Assembly (NCBI RefSeq): GCF_036227485.1
Contig: NZ_CP109479.1
Location: 744,001 to 808,000, forward strand
DNA from: Streptomyces sp. NBC_01451
Lineage (GTDB): Bacteria; Actinomycetota; Actinomycetes; Streptomycetales; Streptomycetaceae
Direction: 5' to 3'
DNA length: 64,000 bases
Positions within the stretch are counted from its first letter, which is position 1; each line of letters starts with the position of its first letter. Shown piece after piece: positions 2,255 through 20,850 of this stretch. A model generated the notes under the pieces. That model made no database searches and had not been told where the DNA came from. It was given only the letters and a program-made list of their open reading frames with translations. Both the position numbers and the translations under genes were made by a program.

Positions 2255-2331
2255 TGGTCTCGTGACAGCCGTGACTGTCGGGACCCGTGCACGGACTGGA
2301 AGGCTCGGTGCAAGCCATCGAGGAGGTGGGC

Positions 2332-4974
2332 ATGGACCAGCGGTACGAGGTGTACGCACTCGCCGACCAGCACTTCTACGAGACGCCCGACCGGCTGTCC
2401 GCGGCCGGCGGGGCCACACCCCTGTTCGAGACGGCCGGCCGTGCGGTGCCTGAGGGCTGGCGGGCGGGGCGGATCGGCGACTGGCTGGCACTGACGCCGC
2501 TCGGTCCGGACGGCGACCCGCTGCCCGGACCCGCCCAGGGCTGGAAGGTGCACGCTTCGGCCACCCGGGCGAACGCGGAGCGGATCGCCGCGGCGGTGTG
2601 GGACTACTGCGTGCCGCGCGGCATCCCGTTCAAGTTCCTGCCGGGCCCCCAGCTGCTGCACCTGCGGAACACCAAGTACGCGGGCCGCGACGGCAGCGGG
2701 AAGTTCGTGACGGTCTACCCGGCCGACGAGGATCTCCTGCACCGGGTGCTGACCGAGCTGGGCGCGCTGCTGGAGGGCTGCGAGGGCCCGTACATCCTCA
2801 CCGATCTGCGCTGGCACGACGGTCCGCTGTACGTCCGATACGGGGCGTTCGCCCGCTCCTTCGTCGTCGACGAGCGCGGTTCGCTCGTGCCGGCGGTCCG
2901 GGACGGCGAAGGCCGGCTGGTGCCGGACCGGCGCGCGCCCTCCTTCCAGGTCCCGGAGTGGGTGCGGCTGCCCCGGTTCCTGGAGGCGCAGCTGGCGGCC
3001 CGCAACGCGACGACGGTGAGCGACCTGCCCTACCGCATCGAGAAGGCCCTGCACTTCTCCAACGGCGGCGGTGTGTACGTCGGCACCGACACGCGCGACG
3101 GGCGCCGGGTCGTCCTGAAGGAGGGGCGTCCGCACGCGGGTCTGGCGGCGGACGGCGCGGACGCGGTCACCCGGCTGGAGCGCGAGCGGGCGGCGCTGGA
3201 ACGGGTGTCGGGGCTCGGGACGGTGCCCGAGGTGCGTGACTGGTTCACGCTCGGGGAGCACCGCTTCCTCGTCATGGACTTCATCGAGGGGCGTCCGCTC
3301 AACGCGTTCTTCGCCGAGCGCCACCCGCTCCTCACCCACGACCCGGATCCGGAGGCGGTGGCCGCCTACACGCGGTGGGCGCTGCGTATCCACCGCGCGG
3401 TCGAGGAGACCGTGGAGGCGGTGCACGCGCGCGGGATCGTCTTCAACGACCTGCACATCTTCAACATCATGGTCGCGCCCGACGAGGAGTCGGTGTCCCT
3501 GGTCGACTTCGAGGCGGCGGCGCCGACCGAGGAGCGGGGCCGTCAGGTCGTCGCCCACCCCGGGTTCTTCGCCCCGCCCGACCGCCGGGGAACCGATGTC
3601 GACCGGTACGCGCTGGCGTGTCTGCGGCTCGCGCTCTTCATGCCCCTGACCACGCTGTTCGTGGTGGACCGCGGCAAGGCGGCCCACCTGGCCGAGGTGA
3701 TCGCCGGCCAGTTCCCGGACGTACCGGCCGGGTTCCTGGCCGAGGCGGTCGCCGAGATCACCCGTGACGTGTCCGCGCCGGGAGCCGGCCGCCCCGCGCC
3801 CGTGCCGCCGGCGGTTCCCGTCGAACCCGGCGACTGGCCGTACAGCCGCGACTCGATGGTCAAGGCCGTCCTCGCCTCCGCCACCCCCGAACGCGACGAC
3901 CGGCTCTTCCCCGGCGACATCACCCAGTTCTCCGACGGCGGCGGACTCGGAGTCGCGCACGGCGCGGCCGGGGTGCTGTACGCGCTGTCCCAGGCGGGCG
4001 CCGAGCGGTACGAGGAGGGCGAGCGCTGGCTGCTGGCACACACCGACCCCGTGCCGGTGGGCACGCCGCTGGGGCTGTACGACGGTCTCGCGGGCGTCGC
4101 CCATGTCCTCGACCTGCTCGGGCACCGCCCGCGCGCGCTGGACCTGATCGACATCGTGCTCCGGGAGAAGTGGCACAAGCTCTCCTCGGACCTGCGTGGC
4201 GGCCTCGCCGGGCTGGGCCTGGTCCTCGGCTCGCTGGCGCGCACCACCGGGGAGCGGGAGTTCGCCGAGCGGGCCCAGGACGTCACGGACATCCTGGTGA
4301 GCCGTCTGGACGAGCCGCTCCCCGACCCGCAAAAGCGCCGCGCCGGTCTGCTGCGGGGTGCGAGCGGGCCCGCGCTGCTGTTCCTCCGGCAGTACGAGGC
4401 GACGGGTGACCCCGCGCTGCTCGACGCGGCCGGCACGGCGCTGCGCCGCGACCTGGACCGCTGTGTCGTCCAGCGGGGCGGCGGTCTCGAGGTCGACGAG
4501 GGATGGCGGACCATGCCGTACCTCGCGGAGGGCAGCGTGGGGATCGGCCTGGTCCTCGACGACTACCTGGCGCTGGACGCGGCCGAGGGTCGCTCCCCGG
4601 CCCGTTCCGACCGGCGCGAGGGCTTCGAGCAGGCCCGGAACCGGATCCTGACCGCCGCCGCCTCCCGCTTCTACGCGCAGCCCGGCCTGTTCCAGGGCAG
4701 GGCCGGCATGATCCTGCACCTCGCCCGCACCGGCGCCCCCGAGGCACGGCAGCGGGAACAGGTCGCGGGGCTCGGCTGGTACGCGATGTCGTACCAGGGC
4801 CAACTGGCCTTCCCCGGGCACCAGATGATGCGGCTCTCCATGGACCTGGGCACCGGCACGGCGGGCTGTCTGCTCGCGCTCGGCGCGGCCCTCGACGGGA
4901 CGGCCCCCGCCGCTCTGCCCTTCCTGCCGCCACTACGGCGGCACCAGAACGCGGCTCCGCGCAAGGAGTCGTGA
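2332..4974 (+). CDS. ramC: RamC/AmfT-type class III lanthionine synthetase (LanKC)
   Basis: This 880-residue synthetase makes the SapB-type lanthipeptide from RamS: it phosphorylates core serines, eliminates phosphate, and cyclises the product with cysteine to labionin. An N-terminal lyase-like region is followed by a Ser/Thr kinase domain. The catalytic loop FNDLHIFN is near residue 370 and the metal-binding VDFEAA near 391. A LanC-like cyclase fills the C-terminal half (from about residue 535, with GLGVAHGAAG near 540). The cyclase lacks the Cys-Cys-His zinc ligands of class I, II and IV enzymes, which fits class III. The ATG at 2332 was preferred over the one at 2287 because AGGAGGTG sits 7 bases upstream. 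It heads the ramC-S-A-B operon; ramS follows after 61 bases. Confidence 0.93.
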   Translation: MDQRYEVYALADQHFYETPDRLSAAGGATPLFETAGRAVPEGWRAGRIGDWLALTPLGPDGDPLPGPAQGWKVHASATRANAERIAAAVWDYCVPRGIPFKFLPGPQLLHLRNTKYAGRDGSGKFVTVYPADEDLLHRVLTELGALLEGCEGPYILTDLRWHDGPLYVRYGAFARSFVVDERGSLVPAVRDGEGRLVPDRRAPSFQVPEWVRLPRFLEAQLAARNATTVSDLPYRIEKALHFSNGGGVYVGTDTRDGRRVVLKEGRPHAGLAADGADAVTRLERERAALERVSGLGTVPEVRDWFTLGEHRFLVMDFIEGRPLNAFFAERHPLLTHDPDPEAVAAYTRWALRIHRAVEETVEAVHARGIVFNDLHIFNIMVAPDEESVSLVDFEAAAPTEERGRQVVAHPGFFAPPDRRGTDVDRYALACLRLALFMPLTTLFVVDRGKAAHLAEVIAGQFPDVPAGFLAEAVAEITRDVSAPGAGRPAPVPPAVPVEPGDWPYSRDSMVKAVLASATPERDDRLFPGDITQFSDGGGLGVAHGAAGVLYALSQAGAERYEEGERWLLAHTDPVPVGTPLGLYDGLAGVAHVLDLLGHRPRALDLIDIVLREKWHKLSSDLRGGLAGLGLVLGSLARTTGEREFAERAQDVTDILVSRLDEPLPDPQKRRAGLLRGASGPALLFLRQYEATGDPALLDAAGTALRRDLDRCVVQRGGGLEVDEGWRTMPYLAEGSVGIGLVLDDYLALDAAEGRSPARSDRREGFEQARNRILTAAASRFYAQPGLFQGRAGMILHLARTGAPEARQREQVAGLGWYAMSYQGQLAFPGHQMMRLSMDLGTGTAGCLLALGAALDGTAPAALPFLPPLRRHQNAAPRKES

Positions 4975-5238: not shown

Positions 5239-6969
5239 ATGACGACAACCACCGCCCACGGCCGGCGGACCCCGGCCGCGGACACCGCCTCACCGCTGCG
5301 TGCGGCCGTGCGCCGCACCGGGGCGAGCTGTGCGGTCCTCTTCCTGGTCGCCACGGCCTCGACGGGTCTGAGCCTGGCCCTGCCCCTGACCCTGGGGCGG
5401 GCCCTCGACGTGCTGCTGACGCATCCGGACGGCACCGGCGCCGCGCGCTGGGTCCTGTGGTGCACCGGAATCGTCGTACTGCTCGCCGTTCTCGACGCCG
5501 TCGAGACCGTGCTGAGCGGGACCACGAGCGCCCGCGCCACGGCGTGGCTGCGGCACCGGCTGACCGGGCATCTGCTCGCCGTGGGACCACGGGCCGGGGA
5601 ACGCTTCGGGTCCGGTGACCTGGTGGCCCGGCTGGTCGGCAACGCCGCCCAGGCAGGGACCGCGCCCGCCTCCCTCGCCGCGTTGCTGGCCGCGGTCGCC
5701 GGACCGGTCGGAGCGGTGGCGGCGCTCGGCCTGCTCGACCCCTGGCTGGCGGCGGTGTTCCTCGCCGGGGCGCCCCTGCTGGCCCTGCTGCTGCGGACCT
5801 TCGCCCAGGACACGTCACGGTGTGTGGCCGACTACCAGCGGGCCCAGGGGCGGATCGCGAGCGGGCTCGCGGAGGCGATCGGCGGATCCCGCACCATCGC
5901 CGCCTGCGGCACGGCGGACCGTGAGGTGGCCCGGGTCCTGCGGCCCCTGCCCGGCCTCACCCGCGCGGGCCACCGGATGTGGCACGTGCAGGGCCGAGCG
6001 GCGGCCCGGGCGGTCGCCCTCGCCCCGTTGCTTCAGCTGGGGGTCGTGGCCGTGGCGGGTGTCCTGCTGGTCCGCGGCCGGCTGACGGTGGGCGAGATGC
6101 TCGCCGCCTCGCGGTACGCCGTCCTGGCGGCCGGGGCAGGCGTCCTGGTCGGGCAGCTGTCGGGGCTGGTCCGGGCCCGCGCGTCGGCCCGCCGCCTCGG
6201 CGAGGTACTGGCCGAGCCGGTGACGCCGTACGGGCACCGCCGGCTGCCTCCGGGGCAGGGCCGCCTGGAGCTGCGCGGGGTCACCGCCCGCCGCGGCGGC
6301 CGTACGCTCCTGGACGGGGTCGACCTGGTCGTGCCCGGAGGCAGCACACTCGCCGTGGTCGGCCGCTCCGGCGCGGGCAAGTCCCTCCTGGCGGCACTCG
6401 CCGGACGCCTGGCCGATCCCGACGGCGGAACCGTGCTCCTCGACGGCGTGCCGCTGCCCGAGCTGGACCACGACGAGCTGCGCGGCGCGATCGGCTGCGC
6501 CTTCGAACGCCCCGCGCTGCTGGGCGGCACCGTCGCGGACACGATCGGCCTCGGCGTCCGGGCGGCGCCGCCCGACCGGATCAGGGCCGGTGCCGCCGCC
6601 GCCCGCGCCGACACGTTCGTACGCCGGCTGCCCGACGGGTACGCCACCCCCTGCCGGGACGCGCCCCTGTCCGGAGGGGAGCGGCAGCGGCTCGGCCTGG
6701 CCCGGGTGCTGGCCCGCGACAGCAGGCTGCTCGTCCTCGACGACGCGCTGTCGAGCCTCGACACGGTCACCGAACACCAGGTCGTCGACGCCCTGCTGCA
6801 CCACTCCCCCGGCGGCACCCGGGTGATCGTCGCCCACCGGGTCTCCACGGCGGCCCGCGCGGACACGGTGGCCTGGCTGGACGGGGGGCGGGTGCGGGCG
6901 CTGGGGACACATCCGCAGCTGTGGCGCGAGAAGGCCTACCGGGAGGTGTTCGCGGATGCGGAAGGCTGA
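5239..6969 (+). CDS. ramA: RamA-type ABC transporter (membrane + ATPase half-transporter)
   Basis: This 576-residue half-transporter has an N-terminal six-helix membrane domain (about residues 25-320) and a C-terminal ATPase. The ATPase has Walker A GRSGAGKS near 376 and the signature LSGGERQR near 477, followed by Walker B (LLVLDDALS) and the H-loop (VIVAHR). With RamB it should form the heterodimer that exports mature SapB. The ATG has GGAGG about 10 bases upstream. The last codons form part of a tandem duplication: the segment encoding WREKAYREVFADAEG is copied 154 bases downstream. Its stop overlaps an ATG at 6956 that looks like the ancestral ramB start. Confidence 0.92.
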   Translation: MTTTTAHGRRTPAADTASPLRAAVRRTGASCAVLFLVATASTGLSLALPLTLGRALDVLLTHPDGTGAARWVLWCTGIVVLLAVLDAVETVLSGTTSARATAWLRHRLTGHLLAVGPRAGERFGSGDLVARLVGNAAQAGTAPASLAALLAAVAGPVGAVAALGLLDPWLAAVFLAGAPLLALLLRTFAQDTSRCVADYQRAQGRIASGLAEAIGGSRTIAACGTADREVARVLRPLPGLTRAGHRMWHVQGRAAARAVALAPLLQLGVVAVAGVLLVRGRLTVGEMLAASRYAVLAAGAGVLVGQLSGLVRARASARRLGEVLAEPVTPYGHRRLPPGQGRLELRGVTARRGGRTLLDGVDLVVPGGSTLAVVGRSGAGKSLLAALAGRLADPDGGTVLLDGVPLPELDHDELRGAIGCAFERPALLGGTVADTIGLGVRAAPPDRIRAGAAAARADTFVRRLPDGYATPCRDAPLSGGERQRLGLARVLARDSRLLVLDDALSSLDTVTEHQVVDALLHHSPGGTRVIVAHRVSTAARADTVAWLDGGRVRALGTHPQLWREKAYREVFADAEG

Positions 6970-12153: not shown

Positions 12154-13545
12154 TCAGTGGTTCTCGTTGTTCCCCAGGCCGGTGCCGTCGTCCGCGCCGT
12201 TGCCGGTCTGGTCGTCGACGCCGCCGAGCTCGTCGCCGCCGACCTCTTCGCCGAGTCCGGCCTCTTCGCCCGCACCGGCTTCCTCACCGGCACCGGCCTC
12301 CTCACCGGCGCCCGCTTCCTCGCCCGCGCCGACTTCTTCGCCCGCGCCGACCTCTTCACCGGCACCGGCTTCCTCACCGGCGCCCGCTTCCTCACCGGCA
12401 CCGGCCTCCTCACCGGCGCCCGCACCCGCGTCGCCCGCGCCGAGGGTCGCGCCGACGGCCTCCAGGGCGGTGGTGACCGGCTGGAAGAAGGTCTCGCCGC
12501 CGACGGTGCAGTCGCCGCTGCCACCCGAGGTCAGACCGATCGCGCTGCCGTCCTGGGTGAACAGCGAGCCGCCGCTGTCACCGGGCTCCGCGCAGACGTT
12601 GGTCTGGATGAGGCCGGTGACCGTGCCCTCGGGGTAGTTCACGGTGGCGTCGAGGCCGGTGACCTCGCCGTCGTTGAGGCCCGTCGTGGAGCCCATGCGG
12701 AAGACCTGCTGGCCGACCGCGGCCTCGGCGGCCTGGAGGATGTCGACGGTCTGGCCGTTGCCGACGTCGACGGTGCTGGCCGCCACGGTCGCCGGGTCGT
12801 TGTACTTCACGAGTGCGAAGTCACCGTCGCCCGGGAAGGTGGCTGCCTCGACCGTGGCGATGGGTTCGCCGCCCTCCGCGTCCGACCACTCGGCCGCGGC
12901 CACACCGCAGTGACCGGCGGTCAGGAAGCCGGGCGTGCCGTCTCCGGTCACCACGTTGAAGCCGAGGGAGCACCGGGCGCCGCCGGCGAAGATGGCGTCG
13001 CCGCCCTCCACGAACGTCTTGAAGGTGCCCTCGGTCTTCTTGATGGTCGCCATGCCCGCGCCGAGGCTCTTGACGGTCGACTCGATCGTGTTCCAGTTGG
13101 CGCCCGTGACCGTGCTGTCGGCGGTGACCTGGATCTTGTTGGTGCGGGGGTCGAGGGCCCAGGCGGTGCCCGGGATGGTCGCCTCGGCCTTCAGCGTCTG
13201 CGCGCCGGCCTTCAGCTCGGCGATGCTGTTGTCGACCTCGCGGACAGCGGCGCCGGCCTTCTTGGCCTGGATGATGACGTTGTTGTCGCCTTCGACGACG
13301 TTGATGACCAGCTGCTGCTTGTCGGTGTCGTAGTAGGAGCCGGCGAAGGCGTCCCCCAGCAACTCCTGCAACTGCGAGGCCAGATCCGAGGCGTCCGTCG
13401 CCTTCAGGGTCTTCGGAGCCGCGCCGTCCGCAGCGTCGGTCTGGGACGCCATGGCGTTGGGCAGCAGCAGGGCTGCCGCTCCGAGCGCCGCGACACTGCC
13501 CACCGCTATCGCGGCCTTACGCTTCGGAACTCGCTTGTGACTCAA
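12154..13545 (-). CDS. Secreted streptogrisin/alpha-lytic-type serine protease with acidic repeat tail
   Basis: This 463-residue pre-pro-protease has a signal peptide (about 1-34), a pro-region (to about 178), the S1 catalytic domain (about 179-365) and a C-terminal tail. Catalytic residues are His212 (TAGHCG), Asp242 (GDFALV) and Ser324 (GDSGGS). Four cysteines (192, 213, 318, 346) match the two conserved disulfides. GGDAIFAGGARCSLGFNV aligns with the mature start of streptogrisins. Residues 376-435 are ten hexapeptide units, GAGEE plus A or V, followed by an Asp/Asn/Gly-rich end. Streptogrisins A and B end near residue 365 here, so the tail is an addition. It is divergent from the thioesterase, and the GTG/ATG start region is preceded by GGAGG (13550-13554). 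Confidence 0.9.
   Translation of the reverse strand: MSHKRVPKRKAAIAVGSVAALGAAALLLPNAMASQTDAADGAAPKTLKATDASDLASQLQELLGDAFAGSYYDTDKQQLVINVVEGDNNVIIQAKKAGAAVREVDNSIAELKAGAQTLKAEATIPGTAWALDPRTNKIQVTADSTVTGANWNTIESTVKSLGAGMATIKKTEGTFKTFVEGGDAIFAGGARCSLGFNVVTGDGTPGFLTAGHCGVAAAEWSDAEGGEPIATVEAATFPGDGDFALVKYNDPATVAASTVDVGNGQTVDILQAAEAAVGQQVFRMGSTTGLNDGEVTGLDATVNYPEGTVTGLIQTNVCAEPGDSGGSLFTQDGSAIGLTSGGSGDCTVGGETFFQPVTTALEAVGATLGAGDAGAGAGEEAGAGEEAGAGEEAGAGEEVGAGEEVGAGEEAGAGEEAGAGEEAGAGEEAGLGEEVGGDELGGVDDQTGNGADDGTGLGNNENH
12241..12420 (-). repeat. Ten tandem 18-bp units encoding the acidic GAGEE(A/V) tail
   Basis: The segment codes for protease residues 376-435. Each 18-base unit gives GAGEEA or GAGEEV; the tenth is GLGEEV. 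Neighbouring units differ at synonymous positions, so this is coding repeat expansion rather than a simple DNA repeat. On the plus strand it appears as a spurious proline/serine-rich frame. Confidence 0.85.
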
Positions 13546-14147: not shown

Positions 14148-14651
14148 TTCAACACACAGGGTGTTCACAGAAAAGGACTTTCCGTAATCACCACATGACT
14201 TCGGGTCGGTCAAACCGGTGCGAATCACGGCTCCAGCGAATCTGCACATCGAATACCCAGTCAGGTCACCCCATGCGACGGTTCCGCACATCTCCTCGTC
14301 ACACGCCACGCCTTTGGTACCGGACTGTCCGATTCCGCCTTGTACCGGTGACCGACGCCGCCGCCCGACCGCAAGGGCCGAGGTGCACCGATGCCGTGCG
14401 TCATGTGAAGAAGTCGCCGCCAAGGCGTGCGCGCACCCTCACGGTGTGAGGCCTGCGGGTCTCAAATGCCCTGGTGGGGCGGTTGGTTGATTGGAAGGGC
14501 GCTGTGCGGGCGTGCTTTGATCCATCGCATCGCAGGGGCCGCCGAGGTTCCGGAAACGAGCCTGGGTGGCCCTGCGGCCGCGGCCGTCGTCTGTCCCCCA
14601 GAGGGGGCCGCTCCCCCCTTGTGAAATCCCCATATGAAGGGAAGTTCCATC
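14148..14651. other. 500-base gap before the glycine-zipper peptide gene
   Basis: No convincing gene is seen. The region is less GC-rich than its surroundings at its left end (14150-14340), with short frames lacking codon bias. It should carry the promoter of the peptide/exporter operon. A plausible ribosome site (AAGGGAAG, 14637-14644) lies at its right end. Confidence 0.5.
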
Positions 14652-14870
14652 ATGAACTCCACCCCCCAGGTTGAGACCGCCGAGCTGTCGGACGCCGCCC
14701 TCGACGCCGTCTCCGGCGGTCTGTCCCTGCACGCCGTCGGCACCGTCACGAACCTGGTGGACAGCGTTGCCCCCGGCGCGCTCCCGCTGGTCGGCTCGGT
14801 CACCGGCACGGTCGAGGGCCTCACCGGCCTGAACACCGGTGCGGTCACCGGCCTGGTCGCCGGTCTCTGA
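14652..14870 (+). CDS. Double-glycine leader peptide with glycine-zipper core (bacteriocin-like)
   Basis: This 72-residue peptide has a leader ending ELSDAALDAVSGG (residues 11-23), a typical double-glycine signal for a C39-peptidase exporter. The 49-residue core has no Cys, Lys or Arg; it is hydrophobic with only His27, Asp37 and Glu55 ionisable. From residue 48 the glycines fall at 48, 52, 56, 59, 63, 67 and 71, a GxxxG glycine zipper typical of packed membrane helices. The ATG at 14652 has AAGGGAAG about 7 bases upstream; the ATG at 14634 has none. A hairpin follows, then HlyD and two NHLM-type exporters. No lanthipeptide or radical-SAM enzyme is nearby, so the product is probably unmodified. 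Similar small proteins are often labelled type A2 lantipeptide by leader similarity. Activity is unknown. Confidence 0.75.
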   Translation: MNSTPQVETAELSDAALDAVSGGLSLHAVGTVTNLVDSVAPGALPLVGSVTGTVEGLTGLNTGAVTGLVAGL

Positions 14871-14889
14871 CCGACGCCTTGCGCCGCTG

Positions 14890-14920
14890 AGTCCCGGAAC
14901 CGTTTCCCGGTTCCGGGACT
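14890..14920 (+). terminator. Hairpin directly after the peptide gene
   Basis: A perfect 12-bp stem (14890-14901 with 14909-14920) has a 7-base loop. It starts 19 bases after the peptide stop and ends 80 bases before the HlyD gene. It probably limits read-through into the exporter genes so that the peptide is made in excess. Confidence 0.7.
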
Positions 14921-15000
14921 CTCGGGTGCCTGGGCGCTCCACCCGGCACACGGTTCGTCCGCCGCCGGTATTCATCCGCTCGCAGGTGAGGGAAAGTCCC

Positions 15001-15807
15001 GTGCAGTTCCGCCAACAGGCCCTCGCCAAGCTCCAGTCGGCCGAAGAGCTGGATCTTCCGGTGCGCTTCGCACGCCCCCAGGGCTGGCTGGTCCTCTCCG
15101 TCACGGTCGTCGTCATGGCCGCCGCGTCGGTGTGGGCGGTCACGGGGTCCGTCTCCTCCACCGTGAGCGCGCCCGCCATCCTCACGCACGGGGAGGGCAG
15201 TTACGTCCTGCAGAGCCCCGTCGCGGGCCAGATCACCGCGGTCCTCGCCGAGGAGGGCGCCCGGCTGCCCGCCAACTCCCCTGTGCTGAAGGTCCGTACC
15301 GCCTCCGGGGAGGAGGTCGTCCGCTCGGTCGCCGCGGGCCGGCTCACCGCGCTCGCCGCGACGATCGGCCAGATCATCGGCACGGGCACGAACATCGCGG
15401 CCGTCGAGAAGGTCGCCCGCGCGAGCGACCCGCTGTACGCGACGGTGTACGTCCCGGCCGAGAGCGCCGCCACGATTCCCGCGAACGCGGCCGTCGACCT
15501 GAGTGTCCAGACCGCGCCCACCCAGCAGTACGGGGTACTGCGCGGTCATGTGGAGTCGGTGGACCGGGCCGCCCAGACCGAGCAGCAGATCGGCGCGTTC
15601 CTCGGCGACAGCCAGCTGGGCGAGCAGTTCACCAAGAAGGGCAGGCCGGTCGCCGTGCTGGTGAAGCTGGACAAGTCGCCGGCCACGAAGAGCGGTTACC
15701 GGTGGTCCTCCGCCGAGGGACCGCCGTTCGCGCTCACCTCCATGACCCTGGCCTCGGGCTCGATCCGGCTGGCCGACCAGCGTCCCGTCGACTGGCTGCT
15801 GCCGTGA
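15001..15807 (+). CDS. HlyD-family membrane-fusion/adaptor protein
   Basis: This 268-residue adaptor has a cytoplasmic N-terminus, one membrane segment (about residues 33-55) and an extracytoplasmic lipoyl/barrel-sandwich domain. The lipoyl halves are around QSPVAGQITAVLAEEGARL and VRSVAAGRLTALAATIGQII, then a beta-barrel region. It is shorter than Gram-negative HlyD proteins and lacks the long coiled coil, as is usual in Gram-positive export systems. The GTG at 15001 has GAGGGAAAG just upstream; longer in-frame starts run back across the peptide gene. Its TGA overlaps the GTG of the next gene (GTGA, 15804-15807), so the two are translationally coupled. It should link the exporters to peptide release. 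Confidence 0.82.
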   Translation: MQFRQQALAKLQSAEELDLPVRFARPQGWLVLSVTVVVMAAASVWAVTGSVSSTVSAPAILTHGEGSYVLQSPVAGQITAVLAEEGARLPANSPVLKVRTASGEEVVRSVAAGRLTALAATIGQIIGTGTNIAAVEKVARASDPLYATVYVPAESAATIPANAAVDLSVQTAPTQQYGVLRGHVESVDRAAQTEQQIGAFLGDSQLGEQFTKKGRPVAVLVKLDKSPATKSGYRWSSAEGPPFALTSMTLASGSIRLADQRPVDWLLP

Positions 15808-18026
15808 GCGCCGCGCCGAACTCCCGGGCCAGGCGCCGCTCGGCCCCGCCCCGCCGCACGGTTCCGAAGGGCAGCGGCAGGTCCGTGCGCACTCCGACGA
15901 TCCTCCAGATGGAGGCCGTGGAGTGCGGCGCGGCCTCGCTCGCCATGGTCCTCGGTCACTACGGGCGGCACATCCCCCTGGAGGAGCTGCGCATCGCCTG
16001 CGGTGTGTCGCGGGACGGCTCACGCGCCAGCAACCTCCTGAAGGCGGCCCGGAGTTACGGTCTGACGGCCAAGGGCATGCAGATGGACACGGCCGCGCTC
16101 GCCGAGGTGGACGCGCCCGCGATCCTGTTCTGGGAGTTCAACCACTACGTCGTCCTCGACGGCATGGGCCGCCGCCTCGGCCGGCGCGGGGTGTACGTCA
16201 ACGACCCCGGCAAGGGCCGCCGGTTCGTGCCGATGGAGGACTTCGACTCCAGTTTCACCGGTGTCGTCCTCGTCATGGAGCCGGGCCCCGACTTCGAGCG
16301 CGGCGGGCGCAGACCGGGCGTCCTGGGTGCCATGCCGGCCCGGCTGCGCGGCACTTCGGGCACGATGCCCGCCGCGATCCTGGCGAGTCTGCTGCTGGTG
16401 GCGGTGGGCGCCGCGATGCCCGCGCTCAGCCGCACCTACATCGACACGTTCCTGATCGGCGGCCGGACCTCGATGCTGGAGGTGCTGTTCGCGTCGATGG
16501 GCGCGTGCGTGGCACTGACCCTCGTACTGACCTGGCTGCAGCAGGCGAACCTGCTGCACGGCCGCATCATCTCCTCGACCCTGAGCAGCGCCCGCTTCCT
16601 GCGCCATCTGCTGCGCCTCCCGGTCACCTTCTTCTCCCAGCGCAGCCCGGCCGACCTGGTCCAGCGCCTCCAGTCGAACGACGCGGTGGCCGAGACGCTG
16701 GCCCGCGACCTCGCGGCGGCGGGTGTCGACGCGTTCGTCGTCGTGCTGTACGCGGTGCTCCTCTACACGTACGACCCGCAGCTCACGGCCGTCGGCATCG
16801 GTGTGGCGCTGCTCAACATCGTGGCCATGCGGGTGGTGATCCGGCTGCGCGCGACCCGGACCGCCAAACTGCGCGCGGACAACGCCCGGTTGACCAACAC
16901 CGCATATTCCGGGCTCCAGTTGATCGAGACGATGAAGGCGACCGGTGGCGAGGAGGGGTATTTCCGCAAGTGGGCCGGGCAGCACGCGACCACGCTGGAG
17001 GAGCAGCAGCGGCTCGGCGTGCCGAGTGCCTGGCTGGGGGTGGTCGCGCCGACGCTCGCGACGCTGAACAGCGCGCTGATCCTGTGGATCGGCGGGATGC
17101 GGGCCGTCGAGGGCCATATGTCCGTGGGTCTGCTGGTGGCCTTCCAGGCCCTGGTCGTGCGGTTCACCGCACCCCTCACCCGGCTCAACGGTGTGGCGGG
17201 CCGCATCCAGGACTTCGCGGCGGACGTGGCCCGGCTCAAGGACGTCGAGAACTTCCGGGCGGACCCGCTGTACGCCCGCCCGGGCGGCGGCGATTCGACG
17301 CGCCGACTGCACGGCCACGTCGAGCTGCAGAACATCACCTTCGGCTACAGCCCGCTCGACAAGCCCCTGCTGACCGGCTTCGACCTGACCGTCGGTCCGG
17401 GGCAGCAGGTGGCGCTGGTCGGTGGCTCCGGCAGCGGCAAGTCGACTGTCTCCAGGCTGATTTCGGGTCTGTACGCGCCCTGGGAGGGCGTCATCCGGAT
17501 CGACGGGCAGCGCCTGGAGGACATTCCGCGCGGCGCGCTGGCCGCCTCGGTGTCCTTCGTCGACCAGGACGTGTTCCTCTTCGAGGGCAGTGTCCGCGAC
17601 AACGTGGCGCTGTGGGACCCGTCGATCCCCGACGAGTCGGTGGTGGCGGCACTTGAGGACGCGGCACTGTACGACGTCGTCACGCGCCGCCCGGGCGGGA
17701 TCCACAGCCGGGTCGAGCAGGACGGGCGGAACTTCTCCGGCGGTCAGCGTCAACGCCTGGAGATCGCGCGGGCGTTGGTGCGCAACCCGAGCATTCTCGT
17801 CCTCGACGAGGTGACCAGCGCGCTGGACGCGGAGACCGAGCAGAGGGTGATCGACAACCTGCGCAAACGCGGCTGTGCCTGTGTGGTGATCGCCCACCGG
17901 CTCTCCACCGTGCGCGACAGCGACGAGATCGTCGTACTCCAGCACGGCACGATCGTGGAACGCGGGCGGCACGACGCCCTGGTGGCGGCCGGCGGGGCGT
18001 ACGCCGAGCTGGTCAGGGAGCGATGA
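15804..18026 (+). CDS. NHLM/NHLP-type bacteriocin exporter: C39 peptidase-permease-ATPase
   Basis: This 740-residue peptidase-containing ABC transporter cuts double-glycine leaders and exports the core. The C39 peptidase domain (about 28-165) has Gln35, Cys41 (VECGAAS), His114 (FNHYVVLDG) and Asp134 (VNDPGKG). Six membrane helices follow (about 190-480). The ATPase has Walker A GGSGSGKST near 543, signature FSGGQRQR near 645, Walker B LVLDEVTSALD and the H-loop VIAHR. The intact catalytic residues support cleavage of the upstream peptide after GG. The GTG start overlaps the HlyD stop, and the next exporter begins one base after this stop. Confidence 0.9.
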   Translation: MSAAPNSRARRRSAPPRRTVPKGSGRSVRTPTILQMEAVECGAASLAMVLGHYGRHIPLEELRIACGVSRDGSRASNLLKAARSYGLTAKGMQMDTAALAEVDAPAILFWEFNHYVVLDGMGRRLGRRGVYVNDPGKGRRFVPMEDFDSSFTGVVLVMEPGPDFERGGRRPGVLGAMPARLRGTSGTMPAAILASLLLVAVGAAMPALSRTYIDTFLIGGRTSMLEVLFASMGACVALTLVLTWLQQANLLHGRIISSTLSSARFLRHLLRLPVTFFSQRSPADLVQRLQSNDAVAETLARDLAAAGVDAFVVVLYAVLLYTYDPQLTAVGIGVALLNIVAMRVVIRLRATRTAKLRADNARLTNTAYSGLQLIETMKATGGEEGYFRKWAGQHATTLEEQQRLGVPSAWLGVVAPTLATLNSALILWIGGMRAVEGHMSVGLLVAFQALVVRFTAPLTRLNGVAGRIQDFAADVARLKDVENFRADPLYARPGGGDSTRRLHGHVELQNITFGYSPLDKPLLTGFDLTVGPGQQVALVGGSGSGKSTVSRLISGLYAPWEGVIRIDGQRLEDIPRGALAASVSFVDQDVFLFEGSVRDNVALWDPSIPDESVVAALEDAALYDVVTRRPGGIHSRVEQDGRNFSGGQRQRLEIARALVRNPSILVLDEVTSALDAETEQRVIDNLRKRGCACVVIAHRLSTVRDSDEIVVLQHGTIVERGRHDALVAAGGAYAELVRER

Positions 18027-18027
18027 G

Positions 18028-20850
18028 ATGACGACGGTCCACGAAGGCGACGCCGATGTCGTCCTCGCCGCGCTCGGACAGCTGGGAACGCGGTTCGACC
18101 TGTCCGGGCAGGGGCGCCTCGATCTCGAAGGCCCGCAGGTGCTGTGGCTGGTCGCGGCCGGCGCGCTCGACCTGTACGCGGTCGACGCCGTGGAGCAGGG
18201 CCAGTGGCACCACATCGGCCGGCTGGAGGCGGGCGCGCTGCTGCTCGGCCCGGTCACCGGCCCGGACCACACGCTGGTCGCCCGCCCGGTGCGCGACTGC
18301 GTGGTGCACCGCATCGGGCTGCGCGAGCTGTACCGGTCGCCGGACACGGAGACCTGGTCGTACGACGAGTACGGCAACGCCCGGTACGTGCCCCCGGCGA
18401 CCAGCCCGCTGGAGTACGCCCTCGCCCTGGGCGTCGGCCGAGGCCTGTCGGTCCTCTTCCAGGCACCGATGGCCTCGGAACGGGCCGCCGCGCCGGCCGA
18501 CGACGACGTGTTCTGGATGCAGGTCCCGCCGGGCAGCGTCCGGTACGGGTCGCTGTACGGGGCGGAGGCCGCCGCCGACCTGCTGATGGACCCCGGGGTC
18601 TGGCAGGGCATGGTCGACCAGCAGTACCGGCTGCTCACCACCCTCGACCGGTGGATCGAGCAGCTGGAACGCAGCCACGAGACCCGTACGGCGGCCGGCA
18701 TCAGGGCGGGCGAGGCCGTCCGCGCGCAGGCCGACCGGACGCTGCTGGCGTCGATCGGGAGGCCGTCGGCGAAACGCACGACCGCCGCCGACGCCGACGC
18801 CACGTACGCGGCCTGCAAACTCGTCGCCGAGGCGGCGGGCATCACACTCGCCGAGCCCGCGCGGAGCGGCACCGAGAGCGACCGGCTCGACCCGGTCGAG
18901 CGGATCGCGCTCGCCTCCCGTGTCCGTACCCGGGCCGTCCGGCTCGACGGGCGCTGGTGGCACGACGACGTCGGCCCGCTGATCGGTCACCGCAGTCTGT
19001 CGGGCACCCCGGTCGCACTGCTGTGGCGACGCGGCGGCTATGTGGCCGTGCACCCCTCGTCGGGACGCGAGACACCGGTGGAGAAGGCGAACGCGGCGGA
19101 GTTCGAGGAGCGGGCGGTGATGTTCTACCGCCCGCTGCCCGAACGCGGGATGAGCCCGCTGCGGCTGCTCCGGTTCAGCATGGGCGGCAGCCGGGGCGAC
19201 GTGGTGAACCTGCTGCTGAGCAGCCTGGTGACGATCGCCATCGGCGCTCTGGTGCCCGTCGCCACCGGCAAGGTGCTCGGCGAGTTCGTGCCGAAGGCGC
19301 AGACCACGCTGATCGTCCAGTTCTGTCTCGCCGTGATGATCAGCAGTGTGGTGGCTGCGGCCTTCACCCTGCTGCAGAACCTCACCCTGCTCCGCATGGA
19401 GGGCCGGATCGAGGCGACGCTCCAACCGGCCGTCTGGGACCGCCTGTTGCGGCTGCCGACGAAGTTCTTCACCGAGCGCTCGACCGGTGAGCTGGCGAGT
19501 GCGGCGATGGGCATCAGCGCGATCCGCAAGCTGCTGGCGGGAGTTGCTCCCGTCGTCACGCAGTCGGTCACGGTGGCGGCGATGAACCTCGGCCTGCTCC
19601 TCTACTACAGCGTCCCGATGGCACTCGCTGCGGTCGGCATGCTCGTGGTGATCGCCGCCGTGTTCCTGGGTCTCGGGCTGTGGCAGGTGCGCTGGCAGCG
19701 GCGGCTGATCGCGCTGTCCAACAAGCTGAACAACCAGGCCTTCCAGACCCTGCGAGGCCTGCCCAAACTACGGGTGGCGGCAGCCGAGAACTACGCGTAC
19801 GCGGCCTGGGCGGGCGAGTTCGCGCGCAGCCGCGAGCTTCAGCAGAAGGTCGGCCGCATCAAGAACCTCACCACGGTGCTGGGCGCGGTGTACCTGCCGG
19901 TGTGCACCCTGCTGATGTTCATGCTGCTGGCGGGGCCGGCGCGCGGTGCGATGTCGGCGGCGGCCTTCCTCACCTTCAACACCTCGGTGACGATGCTCCT
20001 GACCTCGGTCACCCAGCTGACCGGCGCCTTCGTCTCCGGCGTGGCCGCGCTCCCGCTGTACGAGGAGATCAAGCCGGTGCTGGAGGCGACCCCGGAGGTA
20101 CGCGTCGCCAGCACCCGGCCGGGTGTGCTGACCGGCGCGATCGAGGCCCGCCGTCTCTCCTTCCGCTACACGGACGACGGCCCGCTCGTCCTGGACGACG
20201 TGTCCTTCCAGGTGCGGGCGGGCGAGTTCGTGGCGATCGTCGGCCCCAGCGGCTGCGGCAAGTCGACGCTGCTGCGCCTGCTGATCGGCTTCGACAGACC
20301 GGTCTCGGGCAGTGTGCTGTACGACGGCCAGGACCTGGGCGCCCTCGACCAGTCGGCCGTACGGCGCCAGTGCGGCGTGGTGCTCCAGCACGCCCAGCCG
20401 ATGACGGGTTCGATCCTGGACGTCATCTGCGGCACCGAGCCCTACACACCGGAGGAGGCGATGGCCGCCGCCGGGATGGCGGGTCTGGCCGAGGACATCA
20501 AGCGGATGCCGATGGGCCTGCACACCATCGTCCAGGGCAGCGGCGCGGTCTCGGGCGGCCAGCGCCAGCGGCTGATGATCGCGCAGGCGCTGATCCGCAG
20601 GCCGCGCATCCTCTTCTTCGACGAGGCGACCAGCGCCCTGGACAACGAGACCCAGCGCACGGTCATCGAGAGCACCCGCGCGCTGAACGCCACCCGGATC
20701 GTGATCGCCCACCGCCTGTCCACGGTGCTGGACGCGGACCGGGTGATCGTGATGGAGGACGGCAAGGTCGCCCAGCAGGGCACCCCGGCCGAGCTGCTGG
20801 CGGACACGGGCGGGCGGCTGCACGAACTGGTGCGACGGCAGCTGGCGTAG
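18028..20850 (+). CDS. NHLM/NHLP-type bacteriocin exporter: second permease-ATPase subunit
   Basis: This 940-residue ABC transporter is the partner subunit typical of NHLM systems. The first ~370 residues are a soluble extension lacking the C39 catalytic residues. Its opening part resembles a cyclic-nucleotide-binding or cupin-like sensor domain (moderate confidence). The membrane domain spans about 385-680. The ATPase has Walker A GPSGCGKST near 742, signature VSGGQRQRL near 840 and Walker B LFFDEATSALD. It begins one base after the preceding exporter and likely heterodimerises with it. The soluble part may gate export. It is the last gene of the peptide operon. Confidence 0.9.
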   Translation: MTTVHEGDADVVLAALGQLGTRFDLSGQGRLDLEGPQVLWLVAAGALDLYAVDAVEQGQWHHIGRLEAGALLLGPVTGPDHTLVARPVRDCVVHRIGLRELYRSPDTETWSYDEYGNARYVPPATSPLEYALALGVGRGLSVLFQAPMASERAAAPADDDVFWMQVPPGSVRYGSLYGAEAAADLLMDPGVWQGMVDQQYRLLTTLDRWIEQLERSHETRTAAGIRAGEAVRAQADRTLLASIGRPSAKRTTAADADATYAACKLVAEAAGITLAEPARSGTESDRLDPVERIALASRVRTRAVRLDGRWWHDDVGPLIGHRSLSGTPVALLWRRGGYVAVHPSSGRETPVEKANAAEFEERAVMFYRPLPERGMSPLRLLRFSMGGSRGDVVNLLLSSLVTIAIGALVPVATGKVLGEFVPKAQTTLIVQFCLAVMISSVVAAAFTLLQNLTLLRMEGRIEATLQPAVWDRLLRLPTKFFTERSTGELASAAMGISAIRKLLAGVAPVVTQSVTVAAMNLGLLLYYSVPMALAAVGMLVVIAAVFLGLGLWQVRWQRRLIALSNKLNNQAFQTLRGLPKLRVAAAENYAYAAWAGEFARSRELQQKVGRIKNLTTVLGAVYLPVCTLLMFMLLAGPARGAMSAAAFLTFNTSVTMLLTSVTQLTGAFVSGVAALPLYEEIKPVLEATPEVRVASTRPGVLTGAIEARRLSFRYTDDGPLVLDDVSFQVRAGEFVAIVGPSGCGKSTLLRLLIGFDRPVSGSVLYDGQDLGALDQSAVRRQCGVVLQHAQPMTGSILDVICGTEPYTPEEAMAAAGMAGLAEDIKRMPMGLHTIVQGSGAVSGGQRQRLMIAQALIRRPRILFFDEATSALDNETQRTVIESTRALNATRIVIAHRLSTVLDADRVIVMEDGKVAQQGTPAELLADTGGRLHELVRRQLA

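Follow-up and report, generated by a model that had tools for sequence, protein, structure and literature searches.

A cysteine-free hydrophobic peptide encoded together with its exporter has been in print since 2019 for Streptomyces coelicolor, where the four genes SCO0753-SCO0756 are described as conserved in many Streptomyces; this and the following statements on these genes are taken from the available part of PMC6629963. All four genes are under the control of the SCO5282/SCO5283 two-component system. SCO0753 is the most induced gene upon activation of SCO5282, when pellets disperse, and hardly any expression of the four genes is left in an SCO5282 null mutant. A possible role of the SCO0753 peptide at the hyphal surface was already put forward there, as was the comparison with SapB. 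Three further papers refer to these genes briefly. The present study concerns what is probably the same locus in Streptomyces sp. NBC_01451, whose genome is a single contig of 10.27 Mb. The stretch that was analysed, referred to as the window, comprises 64,000 nucleotides (744001-808000 of the genome) and contains, at its positions 14652-20850, a four-gene unit encoding a peptide precursor, an HlyD-type adaptor and two ATP-binding cassette (ABC) proteins, ABC1 and ABC2, in that order and all on the plus strand. The two loci are alike in the Cys-free hydrophobic peptide, the HlyD protein, the two ABC components and the gene order, and it is from order and description that orthology is deduced. 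A homologue named S. violaceoruber (P0196) has a peptide that is 69% identical.

We propose, with a probability of roughly 0.6, that this exporter is the hub for a set of co-regulated, dispersed and unmodified peptides, which share their leader with the peptide of this conserved Streptomyces operon and have likely surface cores. The operon, the lack of cysteines and the surface idea were already known, and it is the dispersed peptide set that appears to be new. No description of such a set of same-leader peptides was found in the literature searched, which was mostly open-access, and the available part of PMC6629963 mentions neither the unlinked leader peptides nor the shared upstream box that were found here.

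Three further groups of described systems are comparable, each known to us from the available part of the paper cited. The prochlorosins (PMC7268733) also have many precursors, some of them with genes at a distance from the machinery that they have in common. That common component is the modifying enzyme LanM, whereas in the present case it is the exporter, and LanM is missing from most genomes. In the pneumococcal ComAB/BlpAB systems, one C39 exporter handles several double-glycine peptides, BriC among them, and some of these peptides are induced by the exporter's own regulatory pathway; in contrast to the present case, no genus-wide leader family with swapped cores is described in that part of the source (PMC7595303). 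The NHLM/NHLP and Nif11 systems (PMC2887384) have the same TIGR03796/TIGR03797 exporters, a TIGR03794-like HlyD protein and a double-glycine leader, but here the precursor has another leader and no modification enzyme of its own was found beside the operon.

The exporter operon

The operon comprises the following features, the sample of 150 being evenly drawn Streptomyces genomes.
14652..14870, plus strand: precursor gene, 72 residues and stop codon (ATG at 14652, stop at 14868-14870); found in 107 of 150 Streptomyces genomes with the full precursor profile.
14652..14720, plus strand: leader of 23 residues, MNSTPQVETAELSDAALDAVSGG; own-genome match of the leader profile at E 9.6e-15.
14721..14867, plus strand: predicted mature core of 49 residues, without Cys, Lys or Arg; the cut after Gly-Gly is predicted from the intact C39 domain.
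15001..15807, plus strand: short HlyD-type adaptor of 268 residues with GTG start; Pfam HlyD_3 above cut-off, TIGR03794 (138.8 bits) below its cut-off of 156.2.
15804..18026, plus strand: NHLM-type ABC1 with C39 peptidase, permease and ATPase; TIGR03796, 1018 bits (cut-off 853.3).
15891..16289, plus strand: C39 peptidase domain of ABC1 with catalytic C41, H114 and D134; PF03412, E 1.6e-35.
18028..20850, plus strand: NHLM-type ABC2, permease/ATPase with an N-terminal extension of about 250 residues; TIGR03797, 893.3 bits (cut-off 709.4), residues 257-939.

An alternative in-frame ATG at 14634 would give a precursor of 78 residues. The genes of HlyD, ABC1 and ABC2 lie on the same strand, and neighbours overlap or nearly abut. 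Control of the operon by bldA was ruled out, as none of the four genes has a TTA codon.

A preliminary description of this DNA had listed a 72-residue precursor, a leader ending in SGG, core glycines at positions 48, 52, 56, 59, 63, 67 and 71, and a core lacking Cys, Lys and Arg. All of these were reproduced from the sequence, and the positions given for the C39 triad of ABC1 (Cys41, His114 and Asp134) are correct. With regard to the HlyD protein and the two NHLM-type ABC proteins that it named, ABC1 and ABC2 exceed their NCBIfam cut-offs, whereas HlyD stays under its own; the best-matching stretch corresponds to positions 255-417 of the 421 in the profile, as in a shortened adaptor. The precursor matches no NCBIfam family at E 0.001 and is hence neither an NHLP (TIGR03793) nor a Nif11 (TIGR03798) peptide, and its match to Pfam HAP (E 0.015) is below the cut-off.

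ABC1 is the sole C39 peptidase (PF03412) match in the whole genome. It aligns with PCAT1 (4ry2) over residues 33-736, and both PCAT1 (E 6.1e-99) and ComA (8hf7, E 2.5e-87) resemble it over the full length, peptidase included; the top scores in the same structure-database search belong to P-glycoprotein-type entries, which match the permease/ATPase part only. Peptidase-containing ABC transporters (PCATs) are typically homodimers, according to the available part of PMC6959990. Unlike these, the operon encodes a second, peptidase-free ABC protein next to ABC1, since ABC2 has no peptidase match in NCBIfam or Pfam. The N-terminal extension of ABC2 (18028-18800) lies outside the TIGR03797 match and has no Pfam match at E 0.1. 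We know of no NHLM HlyD/ABC2 pair in the pneumococcal ComAB/BlpAB systems.

Leader conservation and co-occurrence with the exporter

Homologous loci were collected from the GTDB genome collection, the best 80 of 463 being kept. The order peptide-HlyD-ABC1-ABC2 (the peptide-HlyD-NHLM-NHLM order that the preliminary description proposed to look for in relatives) held in all 74 named loci with more than 6.5 kb downstream. The homologue alignment comprises 121 sequences, namely the best 120 of 157 matches and the window peptide, and its most constant regions are the leader and, within the core, the C-terminal part. The leader consensus for PCATs is L(-12)xxxE(-8)L(-7)..GG in the available part of PMC6959990. 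In the alignment, position -12 is Ile or Leu and position -7 is Leu in 121 of 121 sequences, while position -8 is mostly Glu, Asp or Ala, and the predicted leader thus fits this recognition pattern. The same part of the source assigns importance to leader positions -12, -7 and -4 and reports that the transporter has no specific cargo site, which would allow the swapping of cores.

ABC1 was found above its cut-off in 109 of the 150 Streptomyces genomes and the 23-position leader profile in 107. Both are present in 105 genomes and neither in 39 (Fisher p 6e-29, without phylogenetic correction). Four genomes have ABC1 only (G028, G038, G039 and G119) and two have the leader only, one of them an assembly that is 79% complete (G001) and the other with ABC1 in two pieces (G118). 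At the level of the order, the precursor was matched in 201 of 293 genomes and in three of nine genera. At class level, the leader profile was found in 27 of 345 genomes, 25 of which belong to the genus of the window, and the other two matches are marginal (E 5.7e-4 and 8.3e-4). The exporter locus L213 of G038 is a more distant NHLM exporter, with an ABC1 that is 49% identical to that of the window, in a genome without the leader.

Leader peptides encoded away from the exporter

Two or more leader matches were found in 48 of the 150 genomes, all 48 of them ABC1-positive, and in 41 of these a leader peptide is placed away from the exporter. The remaining seven are G069, G085, G095 and G111, for which the second match was not listed, G105 and G147, where it lies on another contig, and G144, where the peptides are in tandem. 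Many assemblies in the sample are fragmented. However, 12 of the 41 genomes are single-contig (G007, G009, G040, G049, G064, G065, G068, G117, G123, G128, G135 and G136), so that the unlinked position is certain there and is not an assembly artefact. In G009, for instance, the operon peptide lies at 9.03 Mb and three further leader peptides at 1.57, 5.76 and 7.40 Mb. The preliminary description had called the exporter dedicated, a view that these additional same-leader peptides in relatives do not bear out.

For the extra leader peptides, 53 loci were fetched, and 51 are unlinked after dropping L201 and L132, the latter being the leader peptide of G118, probably the operon peptide placed on a separate contig. 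The set of other leader peptides used for upstream counts, box consensus, core composition and clustering includes both peptides of L201, and L132 except in composition. It is without L187, L199 and L206, which were read in the core clustering analysis. The unlinked cores comprise several unrelated-looking types of 42-56 residues (n=50), rich in Ala, Gly, Val, Leu and Ser. Clustering at 42% identity merged the low-complexity Gly/Ala-rich cores into a group of 29 and gives an unreliable count of families.

Apart from the peptides themselves, gene families in the neighbourhood are shared by 8 of the 53 fetched loci at most. This argues against a common immunity gene, and thereby against the view that the peptides are unmodified class II-type bacteriocins with cores varying through an arms race. 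Annotation covered 20 of the 562 called reading frames in the flanks, 15 with and 5 without a Pfam match. The matches include a sigma factor, an acyltransferase, CNNM, a metallo-beta-lactamase fold, an AraC regulator, MFS, SpoIIE phosphatases, Band 7, a luciferase-like protein and others; no lanthipeptide, YcaO or radical-SAM enzyme is among the 20 annotated proteins.

C39 matches were listed for 43 genomes, namely the 41 exporter-positive genomes with an unlinked peptide, G001 and G118. Exactly one match was found in 33 of the 41 and more than one in 8, several of the extra matches lying in short frames of about 190-250 residues. None was found in the incomplete assembly of G001, and G118 has one partial match. 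G009, with its four leader peptides, has a single C39 match. The lone match in most such genomes makes ABC1 the candidate for processing, if the unlinked peptides are cut by a C39 peptidase at Gly-Gly at all.

In L201 (G144), two tandem leader peptides with different cores (positions 5986 and 6623) directly precede the exporter, which indicates that operons with more than one precursor exist. The leader peptides of L198, L202 and L204 stand apart as a small group (MSNTSRIETRE.. with an SVSGS.. core), one member of which is found in G001.

A shared upstream box

Three elements were recognised upstream of the precursor gene.
14481..14497, plus strand: GGTTGGTTGATTGGAAG block, a possible -35-like part, conserved upstream (box-anchored consensus).
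14511..14522, plus strand: CGTGCTTTGATC box, common to the operon and many other leader peptides; sole exact copy in the own genome.
14595..14617, plus strand: conserved GC-rich CCCCCAGAGGGGG.. block, located after the box and ahead of the start codon, as seen on aligning the upstream regions of 81 operon loci.

Allowing two mismatches, all 81 operons have GCTTTGATCC in their upstream region; among the 51 unlinked peptides 43 do, where shuffles would give 5.1. Exact copies of CGTGCTTTGATC number 104 in the 150 genomes, and 92 of them are upstream of a leader peptide: 91 precede a listed leader match of the same strand by 42-142 nucleotides, and an additional copy (G128, L247) precedes an unlisted one. 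As a control, the reversed pattern occurs five times in all 150 genomes. The box-anchored consensus also shows a looser GGTTGG-like block about 20 nucleotides upstream of the box. At up to three mismatches, GGTTGATTGGAAG is found in 77 of 81 operon upstream regions and in 10 of 51 regions of other leader peptides, compared with 1.8 expected from shuffles. This arrangement suggests a putative two-part promoter formed by the box and the GGTTGG-like block. With up to five mismatches, TCTGTCCCCCAGAGGGGGC is present in 67 of 81 operon upstream regions, and the CCCCCAGAGGGGG block is possibly a leader-RNA hairpin. A literature search pairing GTGCTTTGATC with Streptomyces found no paper.

One unlinked peptide type (L135, L138, L180, L183 and L184) has a variant box, CGTGCTTACATCC or similar. 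A neighbouring gene family is present at these five loci, its member at L135 having a sigma-70 region 2 domain, and this family might drive the variant box.

A shared regulatory box would also fit signalling peptides, sensed by a two-component system and tuning development in the manner of CSP (competence-stimulating peptide) and BriC in pneumococcus. The two-component control of the S. coelicolor genes is in keeping with this, as is the example of BriC, a double-glycine peptide that is ComE-induced and ComAB-exported (PMC7595303). On the other side, no histidine kinase is among the window proteins given to Pfam, which left most of the window unannotated, and the hydrophobic, low-complexity composition speaks against a signal. 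We regard signalling as unlikely, although it is the main alternative to an envelope or surface role.

Modification

In public records, many homologues bear the name 'type A2 lantipeptide'. We rejected this label, as the core has no Cys and the own genome has no LanM (PF13575). In the genus sample, LanM was found in 41 of 150 genomes, and in only 23 of the 105 with both exporter and leader. The preliminary description had seen no modification enzyme in the flanks. RamC is in fact encoded about 10 kb upstream of the operon (2287-4974); however, it belongs to the SapB (ram) pathway by Pfam name and was found beside only 23 of the 80 named homologous loci, a lower bound given flanks of at most 10 kb. 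The adjacency to SapB, offered as a clue at that stage, was not borne out by this count, and a SapB/ram partnership was rejected.

A lanthipeptide or other ribosomally synthesised and post-translationally modified peptide, modified in trans by an unlinked enzyme, would account for the database name, for the Thr and Ser residues of the core and for RamC at about 10 kb. It is nevertheless very unlikely, given that 80 of 81 operon cores are without Cys, that the own genome and 82 of the 105 genomes lack LanM, and that RamC was found near only 23 of 80 loci. The preliminary claim of an exported, unmodified hydrophobic peptide with its exporter is accordingly supported as probable, with LanM missing from the own genome and present in only 23 of the 105 genomes that have exporter and leader. 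Judged by gene content, the peptide is likely to be without lanthionines, and it is plausible that it is without other modification chemistry. The latter is weaker because the genome-wide survey covered LanM and not YcaO or radical-SAM enzymes.

Properties of the cores

The preliminary description regarded a glycine zipper as the defining feature of the core. GxxxG pairs are indeed above chance in the window core, with 5 against 1.4 expected from same-composition shuffles (p 0.0024), whereas the wider Gly/Ala/Ser spacing is not enriched (6 against 5.2). In operon cores, 263 pairs were counted against 94.5 expected, and 37 of 81 cores have p < 0.05; in the cores of other leader peptides, the figures are 112 against 74, and 9 of 50. 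The spacing is partly kept in homologues: in the 121 aligned sequences, G52 is conserved in 103, G56 in 120 and both G59 and G71 in 121, but G48 is found in only 29, G63 in 12 (Ala in 97) and G67 in 68. A strict glycine zipper, enriched in operon cores and weak in other cores, was therefore rejected as a hallmark, and it cannot be regarded as conserved.

Operon cores are more hydrophobic than the other cores, with a grand average of hydropathy of 1.01 compared with 0.71. They exhibit a helix-like hydrophobic pattern, with an excess at i+3/i+4 and a deficit at i+2/i+5, in contrast to the other cores, which show a deficit at i+3 and are not helix-like. Cys is present in 1 of 81 operon cores and absent from that of the window. 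Averaged over 71 operon sequences, the raw ratio of nonsynonymous to synonymous polymorphism amounts to 0.51 in the core and 0.36 in the leader. Ratios of this kind are subject to bias from base composition; the values are consistent with a functional product whose core is under purifying selection.

Class II bacteriocins are usually cationic, whereas the cores are anionic, with a mean net charge of -2.26 in the operon (n=81, range -4 to -2) and -2.36 elsewhere (n=50). The presence of the operon in 105 of 150 genomes and the purifying selection on its core likewise do not suit a bacteriocin. A double-glycine leader and a PCAT exporter are typical of this class (leaders are compared in the available part of PMC2887384), and the cores do differ between genomes; on balance we consider a bacteriocin improbable, even less so to be expected than a signal.

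Proposed export and function

The operon anatomy, the co-occurrence of leader and exporter, the shared box, the absence of LanM from the own and most genomes and the single C39 match in most are read directly from the genomes, and from these we infer the following course. The leader would dock on the C39 domain of ABC1, which would cut the precursor after Gly-Gly, and the 49-residue core, bearing neither lanthionines nor any other enzyme-made modification, would be pumped out through ABC1/ABC2 with the short HlyD adaptor. In relatives, standalone peptides with genes elsewhere would leave the cell by the same exporter, their common leader serving for recognition and the shared CGTGCTTTGATC box acting as the promoter element that turns on their genes. 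Most likely, the hydrophobic, anionic, Gly-rich cores form a coat on the hyphal envelope or surface or condition it; this role is the likeliest on the S. coelicolor data and the composition. The regulation is that in print for S. coelicolor only (PMC6629963).

Several observations weigh against the exporter as a hub for unmodified surface peptides. The own genome has no unlinked leader peptide by the leader profile, only that of the operon. The co-occurrence of leader and exporter is inflated by shared ancestry, and the 8 of 41 genomes with further C39 matches have peptidases that could serve instead. With regard to the box, 8 of 51 unlinked upstream regions lack it even at two mismatches, the exact 12-mer CGTGCTTTGATC is present in only 21 of the 51, and the other 12 of the 104 exact copies have no visible double-glycine peptide downstream. 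In one peptide group, the upstream region is for the most part shared with the operon, and the similarity of leader and box may in part have been inherited by duplication. Among the other cores, 8 of 50 contain Cys and 17 of 50 contain Lys or Arg, and modification by an unlinked or otherwise unrecognised enzyme may occur. The surface function draws on one transcriptome paper and on composition. The AlphaFold model of the precursor has low confidence (predicted local distance difference test 58.7, predicted template modelling score 0.23), too low for use of its three weak helices (14-38, 44-58 and 62-71).

Peptide exporters are usually assigned to the adjacent precursor, and genome mining often starts from the modifying enzyme. 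In combination, leader, exporter and 12-base box reveal scattered peptides encoded by single genes, which would otherwise be missed or called lantipeptides. We give marginally better than even odds to the broader notion of a genus-level secretory regulon, in which one NHLM exporter serves species-variable unmodified peptides that are united by the 23-residue leader and the CGTGCTTTGATC element and whose cores are freely swapped. If this is true, the regulon peptides would make up a new peptide class of Streptomyces, with a surface or signalling role, that the name 'type A2 lantipeptide' has concealed. If the exporter is the hub, deletion of one gene should remove the whole secreted peptide set, which makes the role of SCO0753 directly testable.

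A neighbouring protease gene

An S1-type serine protease with an alpha-lytic prodomain and a GAGEE-repeat tail is encoded on the minus strand at 12154-13545. In 75 of the 80 named homologous loci, this gene is found in opposite orientation at a distance of about 1.5 kb upstream. It is absent from the divergent exporter loci L201, L210, L211 and L214-L216, which were inspected with flanks, and from the more distant L213, and a secreted protease was therefore rejected as an obligatory partner. In one clade, the protease could process the peptide outside the cell.

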